From: Planctomycetes bacterium RBG_16_41_13
GTDB taxonomy: Bacteria > Planctomycetota > Brocadiia > Brocadiales > Brocadiaceae
Reading direction: 5' to 3'
Assembly (NCBI GenBank): GCA_001828295.1
Contig: MHYI01000087.1
Location: forward strand, 1-5,308
Length of the DNA: 5,308 bases
Shown here: positions 332-5,048 of the stretch, piece after piece
Layout of the letters: each line of letters starts with the position of its first letter
Position numbering within the stretch: the first letter of the stretch is position 1
Notes under the pieces: generated by a model
The model's database searches: none
What the model was told of the DNA's origin: nothing
The model's input: only the letters and a program-made list of their open reading frames with translations
Translations under genes and position numbers: made by a program

Positions 332-895
332 CTAAAATTTTACTTTAGGCACTTCCTTCTCAGCCTCTGATACTTCAAAATAACTTGCCTCTGTTACACC
401 AACACGTGCGGCAAAGAATCTGCCGAAAAAACTTTTTATATAGGTGTTAAGTTCTTTTACTGAATCATTATAGCGTTTACGCTCTACGGAAATCCGGTTT
501 TCAGAGCCTTCCAGTGTATCCTGTAGCTTAAGAAATGATTCATTTGCCTTGAGATCCGGGTATGCTTCTCTGAATGCAAGCAGGCGGGAAAGAAAACCTT
601 CGATCTGTGTTGCGGCCTTTGCCTTATCCGCAATGGTTCCTGCGCTAAAATATCCCTTGCGGGCCTCCGCAAGTTTTTCAAAAACTTCTCTTTCGTGCGA
701 TGCATAACCTTTTACGGTTTCTACCAGATTAGGAATGAGGTCATACCTCCGCTTAAGCTGTGTATCCACTTGTGACCATGAGTTCTTGACGTTTTCATTC
801 AGTTTTACCACCTTATTGTATCCTTTAACATACCAGGAAACAGCAATGATCCCTACAAAAACCAAAATAGCAATGACAGGTAATATCTTTCTCAT
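332..895 (-). CDS. lemA: LemA family membrane protein
   Basis: The 187-residue product has a single N-terminal transmembrane segment (about residues 4-22). It then carries the LemA signature: YNKVVKLNENVKNSWSQVD followed by QLKRRYDLIPNLVETVKGYA at about residues 26-65. The distal block has YNDSVKELNTYIKSFF and the usual closing EVPKVKF. LemA proteins are largely helical bundles anchored in the inner membrane with the bulk facing one side. Their biochemical role is not settled; they are often encoded beside TPM-domain proteins, as here. The ATG at 893-895 is supported by a GGAAGG Shine-Dalgarno 5 nt upstream, and length is typical. It is the last gene of the leftward block, about 197 bp after the TPM gene, with a heptamer array in the gap, so co-transcription with that gene is likely but not certain. 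Confidence 0.93.
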   Translation of the reverse strand: MRKILPVIAILVFVGIIAVSWYVKGYNKVVKLNENVKNSWSQVDTQLKRRYDLIPNLVETVKGYASHEREVFEKLAEARKGYFSAGTIADKAKAATQIEGFLSRLLAFREAYPDLKANESFLKLQDTLEGSENRISVERKRYNDSVKELNTYIKSFFGRFFAARVGVTEASYFEVSEAEKEVPKVKF

Positions 896-1092: not shown

Positions 1093-1863
1093 TTACCACC
1101 TGCCGGAGGCGCCGCCCCCGCCAAACGAACCGCCCATCCCGCCGCCAAAACCTCCGAAACCACCGGAACCCCCCGATCCAAAACCCCTTGGGCCGCCAGA
1201 ACCGCCCCAATAGTACGGGGAGAACATCATCCTCCGCCGAAGCATGCCGCCGCCAAACAAGAAGGGTAATATGAAAAACATGAATAACAACGACGACAAC
1301 GGGCTACTGCGCCCTTCTGCTGTCCTGCGTATTTTTGCCATGTCAGGCATGCCGGTTATTTTGACGCCTTTTTCTTCGGCAATTTTATCCACCATCACCA
1401 ATGCGGCCAGGAAAATGCCTTCGCCAAACTGCCCCTTTTTGAAATTAGGCCCAAAAAATGTCCTCCCGAGTGTACCACAAAAGCTGTCTGGCAATATACC
1501 CTCAAGCCCGTATCCTACTTCAAACCTGTATGCCCGGTCATTTTTTGCCACGACGATAAGCGCCCCGTTATCTTTCCCTTCCTGTCCCAATTTCCATTTA
1601 GTAGCAAGCTCGATAGCATACATCTCAATAGGTACATTGTCAGTGGTATCCACCGTAAGAACCACCATTTGTGCACCCGTTTTTTGTTCCAGTTCCTGCA
1701 AATATCCATTCAACCGGTTTTCTATCTGGGCTTCGATGATATTTGCCCTGTCTTCCACATATCGTTTTGGCACGGGTAAATCTTGTCCGTACGAAACGGC
1801 AGAAAAGAAAAAAATAAGCAGGGAAAAACAGCTACATGTATAGAGAGAATGTTTTTTATGCAT
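1093..1863 (-). CDS. Exported TPM-domain protein with C-terminal membrane helix and glycine-rich tail
   Basis: The product is 256 residues. A signal peptide covers about residues 1-27 (charged MHKKH, a hydrophobic core SLLIFFFSAV, then SYGQ). The TPM domain (formerly DUF477) spans about 31-165, with VEDRANIIE near its start and the hallmark GKDNGALIVVAKNDRAYRFE followed by VGYGLEGILPD. A membrane helix lies at about 188-205, a basic LRRRMM follows, and residues 219-254 are almost all Gly/Ser/Phe, ending SGRW, like YgcG-type proteins. The family is extracytoplasmic; links to photosystem II repair or phosphatase activity come from plant homologues and may not apply. I chose ATG at 1861-1863 over a more distal ATG at 1924-1926. 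It restores a normal signal peptide, has AAGGTGG just upstream, and overlaps the preceding gene's stop by 8 bp (ATGCATAA), implying translational coupling. Confidence 0.9.
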   Translation of the reverse strand: MHKKHSLYTCSCFSLLIFFFSAVSYGQDLPVPKRYVEDRANIIEAQIENRLNGYLQELEQKTGAQMVVLTVDTTDNVPIEMYAIELATKWKLGQEGKDNGALIVVAKNDRAYRFEVGYGLEGILPDSFCGTLGRTFFGPNFKKGQFGEGIFLAALVMVDKIAEEKGVKITGMPDMAKIRRTAEGRSSPLSSLLFMFFILPFLFGGGMLRRRMMFSPYYWGGSGGPRGFGSGGSGGFGGFGGGMGGSFGGGGASGRW

Positions 1864-2611
1864 TTTCCACCTTAAATTCATCAATTTTCCCGGCAAGAGT
1901 ATCGATTTCATGGTACAATTCTTCAAAAATTTCTTTCAGTTCCTCTGCGGAAGGATTTAAGTCCTTCGCCTTTATCGTAAGCAATCTGGTAAAGGGGTCA
2001 ATTTTGATATTACAGCAATCCCGTATTGCAGAGAGAATCGCATTTTTTTCTTTAGGGATTTTTTGACCGTACAAAAAGAGGATGCCGCAAAAAATAGGAA
2101 AGTAGCCGGAAATGGCGCCTTTGAACAAATCCCTTAGCAACGTCTTATTCCCCATAGCCCTTATAAATCCCTGGCAAATTTGCTGAAGCCTGCTTTTCAA
2201 CTCGCGCTCGCATTGAAGCCTGATATCTTTTTTCTCAATTGTTATATTTTTCAGAATATCTTCTCCGTAAGCAAGCTGATTGTTGTGCTTCATATCTAAA
2301 AACTCTAATGGGAATTCGGCTAAAGACCTTTCGATATAATTTTTTGTCATTACCAGAGGCGCATGTAACTTCTTTTTGCCATATTGCTTCCCCAAAGAAG
2401 CAATAAAATCGAAAAAGGAGACCTTGATCTCCTTAACGATAATCAATGTATTAATATCGGAATGTTTTACATCAAAATCCTTTGTTATGGCGCTGCCGGT
2501 GAGGTATATAGAAACGATATTTTCTTTGTGATGCGATAGAATATCGAGAAAGAACGATTCTACATTTTTTTTAATTTCAGCAGGTAAATAGGAAAGATTG
2601 AGATTTTCCAT
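1856..2611 (-). CDS. Nucleotidyltransferase-fold domain protein of unknown substrate
   Basis: The product has 251 residues. Residues 30-58 carry a minimal polymerase-beta-type nucleotidyltransferase core: the strand IVSIYLTGS ending in Gly39-Ser40, then HSDINTLIIV with Asp52 in the strand. Active members normally have GS followed by D-x-D; here the second carboxylate position is Asn54, so metal-dependent catalysis is doubtful unless another acid substitutes. The remainder is helical, with a hydrophobic stretch (SGYFPIFCGILFLYG, about residues 168-182) and an acidic, coiled C-terminus (about 220-250), resembling nucleotidyltransferases with an attached helical bundle. The ATG at 2609-2611 follows a GGAGG site about 9 nt upstream. 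It lies 42 bp after the coiled-coil gene and overlaps the TPM gene by 8 bp, so the three look like one operon. Substrate and function are unknown. Confidence 0.75.
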   Translation of the reverse strand: MENLNLSYLPAEIKKNVESFFLDILSHHKENIVSIYLTGSAITKDFDVKHSDINTLIIVKEIKVSFFDFIASLGKQYGKKKLHAPLVMTKNYIERSLAEFPLEFLDMKHNNQLAYGEDILKNITIEKKDIRLQCERELKSRLQQICQGFIRAMGNKTLLRDLFKGAISGYFPIFCGILFLYGQKIPKEKNAILSAIRDCCNIKIDPFTRLLTIKAKDLNPSAEELKEIFEELYHEIDTLAGKIDEFKVENA

Positions 2612-2653: not shown

Positions 2654-2905
2654 CTAACTTCCCCGTTCTTCCAGCTTTTTCCGTAATGCGATATTTTCCT
2701 TTTTCGTAGTTTCCAGGTCAAATTGCAGATATTTTATGTTTAATCGCAATGTGTCAAGGGTTTCCTGTAACATCTTAAATGATTTCAGGAGATCTTCACA
2801 TTTTTCTCCCATTTCACTATACGTGGTTAACCCTCTTGATTCGGCCAGTTGTTTGATTTCTTCCAATAGTTTTAACAACCTGTTCTGAAAAGCTTGATCA
2901 TCCAT
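2654..2905 (-). CDS. Small coiled-coil protein, function unknown
   Basis: The 83-residue product is almost entirely predicted helix: residues 5-23 (FQNRLLKLLEEIKQLAESRG) and about 30-80 show leucine/isoleucine spacing typical of a coiled coil, with a short TTY turn between them. There is no signal peptide, membrane helix, cysteine pair or catalytic motif. The ATG at 2903-2905 has a clear GGAGG about 8 nt upstream. It is the first gene of the leftward block, behind a near-consensus promoter and a leader of about 117 nt, and 42 bp ahead of the nucleotidyltransferase-fold gene. I do not recognise a family. Its position suggests an adaptor or oligomerising partner for that operon, which is inference only. 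Confidence 0.75.
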   Translation of the reverse strand: MDDQAFQNRLLKLLEEIKQLAESRGLTTYSEMGEKCEDLLKSFKMLQETLDTLRLNIKYLQFDLETTKKENIALRKKLEERGS

Positions 2906-3101: not shown

Positions 3102-3140
3102 AAATTTAAATTTGACAATGCCGTTTTTTGCCCATATAAT
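3102..3140 (+). promoter_or_regulatory. Consensus sigma70-type promoter for the siroheme operon, with an A/T upstream element
   Basis: TTGACA (3112-3117) and TATAAT (3135-3140) are exact consensus hexamers separated by the optimal 17 bp. An A/T palindrome, AAATTTAAATTT (3102-3113), abuts and partly overlaps the -35 and resembles an UP element. The start point would be near 3147, leaving a leader of about 87 nt to the TTG start at 3234. Such a promoter is expected to be strong unless held by a repressor. Confidence 0.8.
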
Positions 3141-3190
3141 TTCAAGACTTAAGAGAAGAAAAAGGGTTTTCGTTCTGAAATTCTGAAATT

Positions 3191-3221
3191 TGCCTCAATT
3201 TTATTGTGGCAATTTTGTTTT
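3191..3221 (+). promoter_or_regulatory. Leader hairpin followed by a T-rich run (possible attenuator)
   Basis: TGCCTCAAT (3191-3199) and ATTGTGGCA (3203-3211) form a 9-bp stem with one mismatch and a TTT loop. ATTTTGTTTT follows at 3212-3221, immediately before the AAGGAG ribosome binding site. The arrangement resembles a weak intrinsic terminator in the leader, but the stem is A/T-rich and may be too unstable to matter. Confidence 0.3.
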
Positions 3222-3233
3222 AAGGAGTTATCG

Positions 3234-4109
3234 TTGGAGTGGGATAAATCAGCAACGTTGTTACTGGAGAAGGTGCCTCCATTCGTACAGAAAAAAGTGC
3301 GTGATAGGGTGGAGTCGCTTGCCCGTGAACAGGGAAAAGCACTGATTACCTCTGTTGAAGTTATTGCGGCCAGAGAAGCTTTTGCCTTCAACCAGAATCC
3401 CCCTCCTCAAGCAGTAACCAAAAAAACCGAAAGCGACAAACTCTCCGTACTCAGGAGATATCAAAAATATTTTGACGCACAGGGCAACCCTGTCTTATAC
3501 CAGGTAAAAACCTGCAGGGGCGCGGAGGTCAACTGTCCATTTCTGATTAAAGATTCCGGGTATTTAGCGGATAAGCTCCGCGCGAAGTTAAAGGAATTGC
3601 ATTTCACTGACAGATTAATAGAAAAAATTGAGGGCAGAATATTGCCTCACCACACCATGAAACTTGCGGTGGCCGGCTGTCCCAACAGTTGCTCTATGCC
3701 GCAAATTAAAGATTTTGGAGTTCATGCGGTTGAACCAGTTTTTGTTGACACTGAATGCGAGTGCATTGAATGCATGAAATGCGTGGAAGCCTGCCGCGAA
3801 GATGCCATAACGGTGAAGGATGCACAGGTAACCATTGATAAGGAAAAATGTGTAGAATGCGGTATTTGCGCAAAGGTGTGTCCTGTTGGCACGATAAAGG
3901 CATCGGAAGTCAAATACCGTGTAATGGTCGGCGGAAAAGTCGGGCGCCATCCCAGGTTTGCCCTGGAGCTGTTCCCGAATACAGATGAATCTACGGTGCT
4001 AAAGGCATTGGAAGTGTGCGCGGAAATGATTATTTCAAATAAGGAAGAACACCGGTTTAGAGTACTGGTGGAACAACAGGGAATAGAGGAGATAAAAAAC
4101 AAGATATGA
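3234..4109 (+). CDS. Siroheme/[4Fe-4S] sulfite reductase-like protein with PCP_red-like N-domain and two ferredoxin clusters
   Basis: The product is 291 residues from TTG at 3234, chosen because AAGGAG lies 6 nt upstream; a farther in-frame TTG (3204) sits inside the leader hairpin. Residues 3-50 (WDKSA, KVPPFVQKKVRDRVESLARE, then ITSVEVIAAR) match the PCP_red domain. Residues 86-170 resemble the siroheme-[4Fe-4S] domain of sulfite/nitrite reductases. They hold Cys94 and Cys101, spaced C-x6-C rather than the usual C-x5-C, then AGCPNSCS with Cys149 and Cys153 (C-x3-C, the last normally bridging to siroheme). Residues 177-187 and 206-216 are two C-x2-C-x2-C-x3-C ferredoxin motifs, and VGGKVGRHPRF near 232-242 is family-like. 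This is far smaller than assimilatory sulfite reductase and nearer small or Asr/Dsr-type proteins. It overlaps ahbA by ATGA, which argues for a job around siroheme-derived heme synthesis. It could be a reductase or a siroheme carrier; the role is inferred. Confidence 0.85.
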   Translation: MEWDKSATLLLEKVPPFVQKKVRDRVESLAREQGKALITSVEVIAAREAFAFNQNPPPQAVTKKTESDKLSVLRRYQKYFDAQGNPVLYQVKTCRGAEVNCPFLIKDSGYLADKLRAKLKELHFTDRLIEKIEGRILPHHTMKLAVAGCPNSCSMPQIKDFGVHAVEPVFVDTECECIECMKCVEACREDAITVKDAQVTIDKEKCVECGICAKVCPVGTIKASEVKYRVMVGGKVGRHPRFALELFPNTDESTVLKALEVCAEMIISNKEEHRFRVLVEQQGIEEIKNKI

Positions 4110-4573
4110 TATTGTGCGATACCGACAGAAAGATTCTTCATCGATTGCAGTCAAATTTGCCTCTGGTATCAAGGCCCTTTGAGGCATTGAGCAAAGAGCT
4201 GGGCATTGATGAAGACACGATTATTGAACGAATTAAATACATGATTGACAATAAATTTGTCAGACGCCTCGCCCCGATAATAAACACCCAGGCAATGGGA
4301 AGGGAGGCAACGCTCGCGGCAATAAAGGTTCCCGATGAACGGATTGAAGAAGTAAGTGAAATTATCAATGGATATACCGGCGTATCTCACAATTATCTCC
4401 GCAAGGGAAAAAACAGGAATATACCATATAATATGTGGTTTACCATGTCCGCCCAAGATGACGAAGAACTGCGCAGCAACCTAAAGGAAATAGAGGAGCG
4501 TACGGGGCTGGTTGTAAGAAGCTTGCCTACAACAAAGAAATTCAAGATAGGGGTTAAATTTAAAATTTATTAA
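4106..4573 (+). CDS. ahbA: Siroheme decarboxylase subunit AhbA (Lrp/AsnC-like; NirD/NirL type)
   Basis: The 155-residue product has an Lrp/AsnC-type winged-helix region (about 5-56, with the family's ILHRLQSNLPLVSRPFEALS and the FVRRLAPIIN wing). An AsnC-like ligand domain follows, with AAIKVPDERIEEV, GVSHNYLR (His95) and YNMWFTMSA near 108-116. These blocks distinguish the AhbA-type subunit from AhbB. With AhbB it forms the cytoplasmic enzyme that removes two acetate carboxyls from siroheme to give 12,18-didecarboxysiroheme, the shared intermediate of the alternative heme b route and of heme d1 synthesis (NirDLGH). The ATG lies inside the stop of the preceding gene (ATGA), and the nearest purine-rich site is GAGGAG about 15 nt upstream, so coupling is likely. 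Despite the helix-turn-helix, family enzymes are not transcription factors. Heme b versus heme d1 cannot be decided here. Confidence 0.92.
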   Translation: MILCDTDRKILHRLQSNLPLVSRPFEALSKELGIDEDTIIERIKYMIDNKFVRRLAPIINTQAMGREATLAAIKVPDERIEEVSEIINGYTGVSHNYLRKGKNRNIPYNMWFTMSAQDDEELRSNLKEIEERTGLVVRSLPTTKKFKIGVKFKIY

Positions 4574-4577
4574 TACT

Positions 4578-5048
4578 ATGGAAGATAAAAAAGAAGATAT
4601 AGACCTTAAACTCATAAAATATACCCAGGAAGGCCTGCCGGTTACTAAGACGCCATATAAGGATATCGGCATTGCCATAGGGATATCAGAAGAAGAGGTA
4701 ATCCAGCGGCTGAAAAATCTTTTGGAAACAGGAAAGATACGGAGGCTTGCGGCGTCAATTGCCCATCGCAAGATAGGCATCAATGCAAATGCCATGTGCG
4801 TGTGGAAGGTTCCCGACGAACGGGTGGATGAGGTAGGTAAGATTATGGCAAAATTCGAAGAGGTGACCCACTGTTATGAACGCCCTACGTATTCAGATTG
4901 GGAATATAATGTTTTCACCATGATACATGGATATACCGATGAAGAATGTGAAGCCGTAATCGCAGCGATAAAGAAACAGACAGGGTTAAACGATTGTGTT
5001 ATTTTGTATAGCGAGAAAGAGTTTAAAAAAGTAGGGGTGCGGATATAG
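4578..5048 (+). CDS. ahbB: Siroheme decarboxylase subunit AhbB (Lrp/AsnC-like; NirG/NirH type)
   Basis: The 156-residue product is a diverged paralogue of the preceding subunit. It has a degenerate winged helix (about 8-60), then ASIAHRKIGINANAMCVWKV (about 59-78), the AhbB-type block THCYERPTYSDWEYN (97-111, with His98, Tyr100 and Arg102), and FTMIHG (His117). These residues are characteristic of the catalytic AhbB/NirG/NirH side of the heterodimer, where conserved histidines and an arginine contact the tetrapyrrole acetates. The ATG is only 4 bp after the ahbA stop. The upstream stretch lacks a good Shine-Dalgarno at normal distance, so translation probably depends on reinitiation after ahbA. 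It is the last gene of the rightward operon; AhbC and AhbD, which would finish heme b, are not in the window. Confidence 0.93.
   Translation: MEDKKEDIDLKLIKYTQEGLPVTKTPYKDIGIAIGISEEEVIQRLKNLLETGKIRRLAASIAHRKIGINANAMCVWKVPDERVDEVGKIMAKFEEVTHCYERPTYSDWEYNVFTMIHGYTDEECEAVIAAIKKQTGLNDCVILYSEKEFKKVGVRI

Follow-up and report, generated by a model that had tools for sequence, protein, structure and literature searches.

A reworked sulfite-reductase-type protein heads a conserved gene group with the siroheme decarboxylase genes ahbA and ahbB in anammox bacteria

A 5,308-nucleotide stretch of DNA from Planctomycetes bacterium RBG_16_41_13 (assembly GCA_001828295.1, contig MHYI01000087.1; hereinafter the window) carries three consecutive genes, of which the first (hereinafter gene 1) encodes a protein with a domain of siroheme sulfite and nitrite reductases and the other two, ahbA and ahbB, encode the siroheme decarboxylase AhbAB. 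This triad is a real, conserved gene group headed by a reworked sulfite-reductase-type protein. That gene 1 acts as a partner of AhbAB is a good inference, and we tentatively favour a reading in which its product may be a redox partner that is dedicated to AhbAB in anammox bacteria and derives from half of a sulfite reductase. The observations behind this reading are the gene order, the lost sulfite-binding parts, the conserved cluster ligands and a conserved promoter-like box in front of gene 1.

The layout proposed in an earlier reading of the sequence alone (hereinafter the sequence-only reading), including the 4-base overlap of gene 1 with ahbA, the start of ahbB 4 bases further on and the domains, is borne out by coordinates, Pfam and NCBIfam (Table 1). 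Gene 1 starts with TTG, and the bases that it shares with ahbA are ATGA (4106-4109). AhbA and AhbB both score above the cut-offs of their curated NCBIfam models (NF040708, 144.8 bits against 140; NF040707, 202 bits against 125). His95 and Arg99 of AhbA match the iron-ligand His and Arg of Desulfovibrio desulfuricans AhbA, and the active-site His and Arg of AhbA and His-Tyr-Arg of AhbB are invariant across a 10-sequence alignment; the roles of these residues are described for the D. desulfuricans enzyme in the part of PMC4145669 available to us. The two genes thus resemble AhbAB of D. desulfuricans (4czd, 4un1) and Methanosarcina barkeri in matching curated models and keeping catalytic residues. 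The known system is an AhbA/AhbB heterodimer, with no third protein described in the available portions of the two reports (PMC3942049, PMC4145669). The closest relative of gene 1 is KsCSTR_42000 of Kuenenia stuttgartiensis (93% identity), which assigns the window to an anammox bacterium near Kuenenia.

Table 1 Features of the window, with positions counted from its first base
Feature	Position	Strand	Basis and remarks
LemA	332-895	-	recurs upstream in 17/39 Brocadiales loci (matched by size and position)
TPM domain protein	1093-1926	-	recurs upstream in 17/39 Brocadiales loci (size, position)
251-aa (amino acid) protein, no Pfam match	1856-2611	-	recurs upstream in 18/39 Brocadiales loci (size, position)
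83-aa protein, no Pfam match	2654-2905	-	recurs upstream in 12/39 Brocadiales loci (size, position)
Promoter-like box TTGACA-N17-TATAAT, 12/12 consensus bases	3112-3140	+	promoter scan; recurs in relatives
Leader dyad TTGCCTCAAT (3190-3199) / ATTGTGGCAA (3203-3212), then TTTTGTTTT	3190-3212	+	conservation in the Brocadia/Kuenenia group
Shine-Dalgarno AAGGAG, gene 1	3222-3227	+	sequence; similar in relatives
Gene 1, 291-aa PCP_red + NIR_SIR + 2[4Fe-4S] protein	3234-4109	+	sequence, Pfam
PCP_red domain, residues 3-46	3240-3371	+	Pfam; gone from the nested ~240-aa group
C94-X6-C101, first half of NIR_SIR cluster motif	3513-3536	+	alignment of relatives
C149-X3-C153, second half of NIR_SIR cluster motif	3678-3692	+	alignment of relatives
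Inserted two-cluster ferredoxin domain, 8 Cys	3753-3899	+	Pfam; placed as in Fsr, DsrA and DsrB
ahbA, siroheme decarboxylase alpha	4106-4573	+	NCBIfam AhbA model; His95, Arg99
ahbB, siroheme decarboxylase beta	4578-5048	+	NCBIfam AhbB model; His-x-Tyr-x-Arg kept

The gene order recurs in every relative of the linked clade in which it can be tested, and is therefore not a product of chance. Genome counts here and below all come from relatives rather than from the window's own genome; one genome per species was scanned, and the 80 loci analysed are the best 80 of at least 402 confirmed relatives, L001-L039 belonging to Brocadiales and L040-L080 to other phyla. AhbA follows gene 1 directly at 38 of the 39 Brocadiales loci and AhbA plus AhbB at 36, the three shortfalls (L037, L006 and L009) being contig ends. 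When 62 Brocadiales genomes are sorted by match score and span, 51 have a linked-type gene 1, two (G205 and G206) have only a 213-215 aa relative and nine have neither. AhbA lies directly downstream in 50 of the 51 and the contig ends in the remaining one (G212), giving 50 of 50 testable genomes; AhbB is next in 48 of these 50, the contigs of G228 and G232 ending after or inside AhbA. The dedicated tie to AhbAB suggested by the sequence-only reading thus finds support in linkage across all 50 testable Brocadiales genomes that have the linked type, behind a common promoter-like box.

Outside Brocadiales, AhbA or AhbB is adjacent to the gene 1 relative at none of the 41 loci, where some contigs are short and absence is not proof; at L079 an AhbA-like frame lies ~4.7 kb off on the opposite strand. 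Likewise, none of 30 AhbB loci of other phyla (L095-L124, from 30 of the same 41 genomes) has a gene 1 relative within ~1.5 kb, the flanks searched being shorter than this in L099, L118, L123 and L124. Since AhbB scores above cut-off in 30 of the 41 non-Brocadiales genomes carrying gene 1 relatives, these relatives coexist with the pathway unlinked. Homologues found mostly away from decarboxylase genes, the pattern that the sequence-only reading had named as speaking against it, are thus the rule outside the anammox clade but not inside it. In a 149-genome Planctomycetota sample, the gene 1 relatives of G089 and G201 lie on contigs that do not carry ahbA.

The linked proteins form one clade of 39 rows in a quick tree (SH-aLRT, the Shimodaira-Hasegawa-like approximate likelihood ratio test, 99), within which we distinguish a Brocadia/Kuenenia, a Scalindua-type and a ~240-aa group, labels of our own that are drawn partly from the tree. 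The 4-base overlap is found in 17 of 20 Brocadia/Kuenenia-group loci (L001-L019 and L039), whereas gene 1 and ahbA are separated by 9 to 428 bases in the other two groups, which makes strict translational coupling a local trait. The genes upstream are LemA, TPM and the 251-aa protein in the Brocadia/Kuenenia group, a DFP-domain gene at 11 Scalindua-type loci and others in the ~240-aa group; the triad persists while its flanking genes change between families. Gene 1 is split between frames in G224 (L186, L190) and G215 (L019), perhaps through assembly or sequencing errors, and in G224 the end of gene 1 is continuous with ahbA in a single frame. AhbA and AhbB share one open frame at twelve loci of non-Brocadiales Planctomycetota (L125-L130, L132, L133, L140, L141, L143 and L151), with more than 800 residues in three cases.

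Two further candidate marks of the association were rejected. Neither linked gene 1 nor AhbB is present in nine of the 62 genomes, a co-absence that an assembly gap at one locus explains, because eight of the nine still have AhbC. A loop in AhbA measures 19 residues in all 38 readable Brocadiales sequences (window included; L006 is cut) and 14 in nine of ten others, but as a docking mark it fails, L134, L141 and L145 also having 19 residues and no gene 1 in the stretch.

Pfam recognizes PCP_red (47.0 bits, cut-off 32.5), NIR_SIR (47.6 bits, cut-off 27) and ferredoxin domains in gene 1, and NIR_SIR_ferr is not among the matches. The spacing of the first cysteine pair is C-X6-C rather than C-X4-5-C. 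In the alignment of relatives the NIR_SIR cluster ligands are invariant, including C153, which we take to be the position that bridges the cluster to siroheme in sulfite reductases. All 39 readable linked proteins (window included; L039 is unreadable) have C-X6-C, with C-X3-C present, compared with none of the 39 readable unlinked relatives of the first set, of which 38 have C-X5-C and one C-X2-C (L045 and L052 are unreadable). P0111, P0117 and P0120, whose gene context is not known, also read C-X6-C. As a mark of linkage the spacing was rejected, the unlinked L199 sharing it, and it is kept as a trend only. PCP_red is absent, judged by length, from seven ~240-aa linked members, on one of which Pfam was run. 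The term 'siroheme-type', as applied to gene 1, is a domain label rather than a statement on siroheme content. VIA-align lists no AhbAB-like fold for gene 1, a result that means little.

A perfect promoter-like box precedes gene 1 in the window; the box and the leader fall just beyond the coordinates of the sequence-only reading (3234-5048), which are themselves correct. A scan of the window returns five sites against a shuffle mean of 4.9, and hence no excess, with this box as the only perfect one. A 12/12 box lies upstream of gene 1 at all 19 other Brocadia/Kuenenia loci (L001-L019; spacing 16 in L014 and 17 elsewhere), and TTGACT-N16-TATAAT, with 11 of 12 consensus bases, at all 12 Scalindua-type loci (L020-L031). 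Composition shuffles of 250-base stretches match the box in 0 to 6 of 200 cases in these two groups. The assignment is less sure at the seven ~240-aa loci, where the box has 10-11 of 12 bases, lies 8-14 bases from the start and is matched by up to 20 of 200 shuffles (L038).

Between box and gene, an inverted repeat precedes the ribosome site in the Brocadia/Kuenenia group. Its strict pattern occurs once per genome in 18 of the 62 Brocadiales genomes, always just 5′ of gene 1; it is found at no other place in these 62 genomes and its reversed control at none, and other members of the group carry variants that the strict pattern misses. In 18 of 20 leaders (L006 and L019 excluded), 96.6% of cells pair, a value equalled by 117 of 500 shuffles, and no pair has changed on both sides. 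Folding z values against shuffles are mixed (-1.87 for the window; -3.13, -3.64 and -1.02 for three relatives). We therefore rejected the leader as a proven RNA structure; because it is the sequence of the dyad that is conserved, with covariation absent, a DNA site and an RNA hairpin are equally likely. AhbAB has an AsnC-type helix-turn-helix (HTH), so that operon self-control through this dyad would be possible. Rfam finds no match and ARAGORN no tRNA in the window.

The closest fold and sequence match of gene 1 is the C-terminal domain of Fsr (7np8, 7npa), which has the same two-cluster insert (its position in Fsr, DsrA and DsrB is given in the part of PMC10229431 available to us). Unlike Fsr, gene 1 has neither a Pfam F420 oxidase domain nor NIR_SIR_ferr, and of the Fsr residues reported there to bind sulfite (Arg355, Arg423, Lys460 and Lys462) it keeps the Lys462 equivalent only. 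These residues were mapped onto gene 1 through the second NIR_SIR protein of its relatives, in which the Arg-Lys spacing of 37 (as 423-460) and the Arg-Arg spacing of 35 (as 388-423) fit exactly; the Arg355 equivalent, counted by hand, is off by one residue. Among the 38 readable linked loci, position 89 is Y in 34, F in three and H in one, never Arg, and position 141 is T in 21, S in five and R in 12, never Lys; Lys143, the Lys462 equivalent, is kept in all 38, leaving one of the four sulfite-binding residues. Of the 41 unlinked relatives, one has Arg at position 89, ten have Lys at 141, and 37 carry either Lys or Arg at 143.

Gene 1 also resembles DsrA, DsrB and AsrC-type proteins in having NIR_SIR with a ferredoxin insert, and residues 125-260 match TIGR02912; it differs from them in reaching only 69 bits on this model, against a cut-off of 324, and in having no Pfam match to NIR_SIR_ferr. 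The body of BchB, the dark protochlorophyllide reductase, is nitrogenase-like, and the other domain of IspG (GcpE) is a TIM barrel. BchB shares PCP_red at one end with gene 1, but the match spans residues 1-50 only and a nitrogenase-like domain is not among the Pfam matches of gene 1; IspG aligns through its cluster domain alone, and Pfam, the sole search made for it, returns no TIM barrel.

Relatives of gene 1 keep a separate candidate for sulfite reduction. A second NIR_SIR gene is present in all 19 relatives' genomes searched, with three matches in G016 and stop-interrupted frames in G008 and G013; five of six such places examined hold the gene, and the sixth (L085, the extra match in G016) scores much lower. 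The copy in G001 has both NIR_SIR_ferr and NIR_SIR by Pfam, a pairing that gene 1 does not show, and lies in a cys-type cluster beside a siroheme-synthase-type protein, DsrE, a PALP enzyme, a JAB protein and TusA. As the relatives carry this separate gene, sulfite assimilation very probably has a gene of its own. The fallback offered by the sequence-only reading, that gene 1 is simply a sulfite or nitrite reductase sharing the operon, would agree with the NIR_SIR domain, the Fsr-like fold and database names such as 'anaerobic sulfite reductase subunit C'. We judge such a role very unlikely, with next to no weight left to it, because NIR_SIR_ferr is missing, one of four sulfite residues is left and a separate reductase gene exists. 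The motif C-X4-5-C...C-X3-C, which gene 1 with its C-X6-C lacks, is a weak test, since the DsrB spacing also differs.

In the redox role that we favour, electrons would enter the inserted two-cluster ferredoxin domain of gene 1 and pass to the NIR_SIR [4Fe-4S] cluster, which would reduce the iron in siroheme or in a regulatory heme held at or near AhbAB; the reduction would keep the decarboxylase step active and siroheme ferrous en route to heme. The proposed parts of the scheme are thus the flow of electrons, the contact with siroheme and the docking to AhbAB; a row of three cubane sites, such as Fsr has, would suit electron delivery. In M. barkeri, the AhbAB heme needs reduction for full activity (6.5-fold, -98 mV), according to the available part of PMC4145669.

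Several points weigh against this role. The same source reports that Desulfovibrio AhbAB does not respond to reductants, and the decarboxylase is said, in the accessible part of PMC3942049, to need no redox cofactor. A size-exclusion study of Kuenenia found the heme biosynthesis proteins KsCSTR_41990 and KsCSTR_41980, which we equate with AhbA and AhbB from tag order only, to co-elute, and KsCSTR_42000 is not named in the main text of that study as available (PMC11897245). Outside the clade, relatives that have the same clusters do without the link, and, as there is a single linked clade, the linkage may have arisen once and persisted. Finally, 52 Brocadiales genomes have an AhbB-model match, 50 of them linked; in the other two, G205 and G206, ahbAB and the gene 1 relative lie on separate contigs. 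Both genomes have HZS_alpha and so belong to anammox bacteria, and a linked gene 1 is therefore not universally required. An unlinked C-X5-C relative of gene 1 is found in two large HZS_alpha-positive Brocadiales genomes (L196, 6921-7562, and L197, 6322-6969; 5.9 and 7.6 Mb), where it groups with Desulfobacterota on a long branch.

The main rival to the redox partner is a plain siroheme carrier, in which the half-site of gene 1 holds siroheme and passes it to AhbAB, or keeps it where the routes to sulfite reductase and to heme part, with no redox job. That the cluster ligands, C153 included, are invariant while catalytic residues are lost, that PCP_red occurs as a domain in a tetrapyrrole enzyme and that relatives' genomes have both the second, cys-cluster NIR_SIR gene and ahbABC would all accord with a carrier. 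The NIR_SIR_ferr half is part of the normal siroheme cleft, however, and Pfam does not find it in gene 1; two extra conserved ferredoxin clusters are unneeded for carrying, PCP_red is gone from some linked members, and the C-X6-C spacing differs from C-X4-5-C, the motif by which siroheme sites are called (available part of PMC8351635). Both roles fit the observations. We favour the redox partner and consider the carrier unlikely, since the ferredoxin insert and the cluster ligands have been retained in all members, which is not true of PCP_red and the siroheme cleft. Gene 1, when reduced, might instead serve the turnover of AhbC or AhbD: AhbC scores above cut-off in 18 of 19 genomes, and its relative NirJ is said, in the portion of PMC12505453 available, to need external electron donors. 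Linkage is to AhbAB alone, however, AhbC lying on a different contig from gene 1 in 18 of 19 genomes and ~646 kb off in G008, and other two-cluster ferredoxin-like matches, partial and around residues 173-225, are common, which makes this role distinctly improbable.

Quite improbable too, in our estimate, is a frozen neighbour, linked once and kept by shared transcription with no functional contact to AhbAB. The single linked clade, the two anammox genomes that manage without linked gene 1 and the nine that lack it together with ahbB, as an assembly gap would give, could all be explained in this way; set against them, genes on both sides have turned over while the triad stayed, and the spacing between gene 1 and ahbA has drifted from overlap to more than 400 bases with the order kept. 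A reductase for another small molecule, for instance nitric oxide (NO) or hydroxylamine, encountered by siroheme or heme intermediates and co-expressed as protection, seems if anything a slighter prospect: non-anammox relatives have no neighbour common to the majority, and the HD-domain and ferredoxin genes that do recur indicate no such substrate. These occur at 8 and 7 of the 41 unlinked loci, respectively, in loci of Desulfobacterota type (L044, L059, L060, L062, L069, L072 and L073); other unlinked neighbours include a CRP-type regulator, a sigma-54 activator, Usp and a P-type ATPase, and no neighbour theme common to most of the 41 loci was found.

The redox role can be extended into a more speculative scheme, improbable when its parts are taken jointly, in which AhbAB of most anammox lineages would have a third working partner derived from a half-cleft sulfite reductase. 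Siroheme would be sandwiched between a [4Fe-4S] face of gene 1 and AhbAB, whose ferredoxin-like fold would replace the lost half; the partner would load siroheme into AhbAB and set its iron ferrous, acting as a gate between sulfur assimilation and a large heme demand, and the single-copy leader dyad would be the site at which the AsnC-type HTH of AhbAB exerts operon self-control.

Heme protein production in anammox bacteria is exceptionally large, and gene 1 is a concrete candidate for directing siroheme into heme instead of sulfite reductase and for setting the redox state of AhbAB; if this is true, a sulfite reductase fold has been reused for heme synthesis. Open-access full text yielded no account of gene 1 as an AhbAB partner, subscription papers lying outside that search. 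The presence of ahbABCD in anammox bacteria is already known, and these genes are listed among those gained at the anammox origin (PMC9387917, available part). The AhbC of the one genome below cut-off, G012, is in two pieces on two contigs, and AhbD is above cut-off in five of the 19 genomes, at 491-498 bits against 500 in ten and weaker in four. In G017, G018 and G019, which belong to the ~240-aa group, the AhbD match is in two pieces within one ~400-aa frame, resembling an insertion. Between the LemA and TPM genes of the window, tandem 7-base repeats (CTCAATC, CAATCTG and GACTGTA) occupy positions 986-1057.

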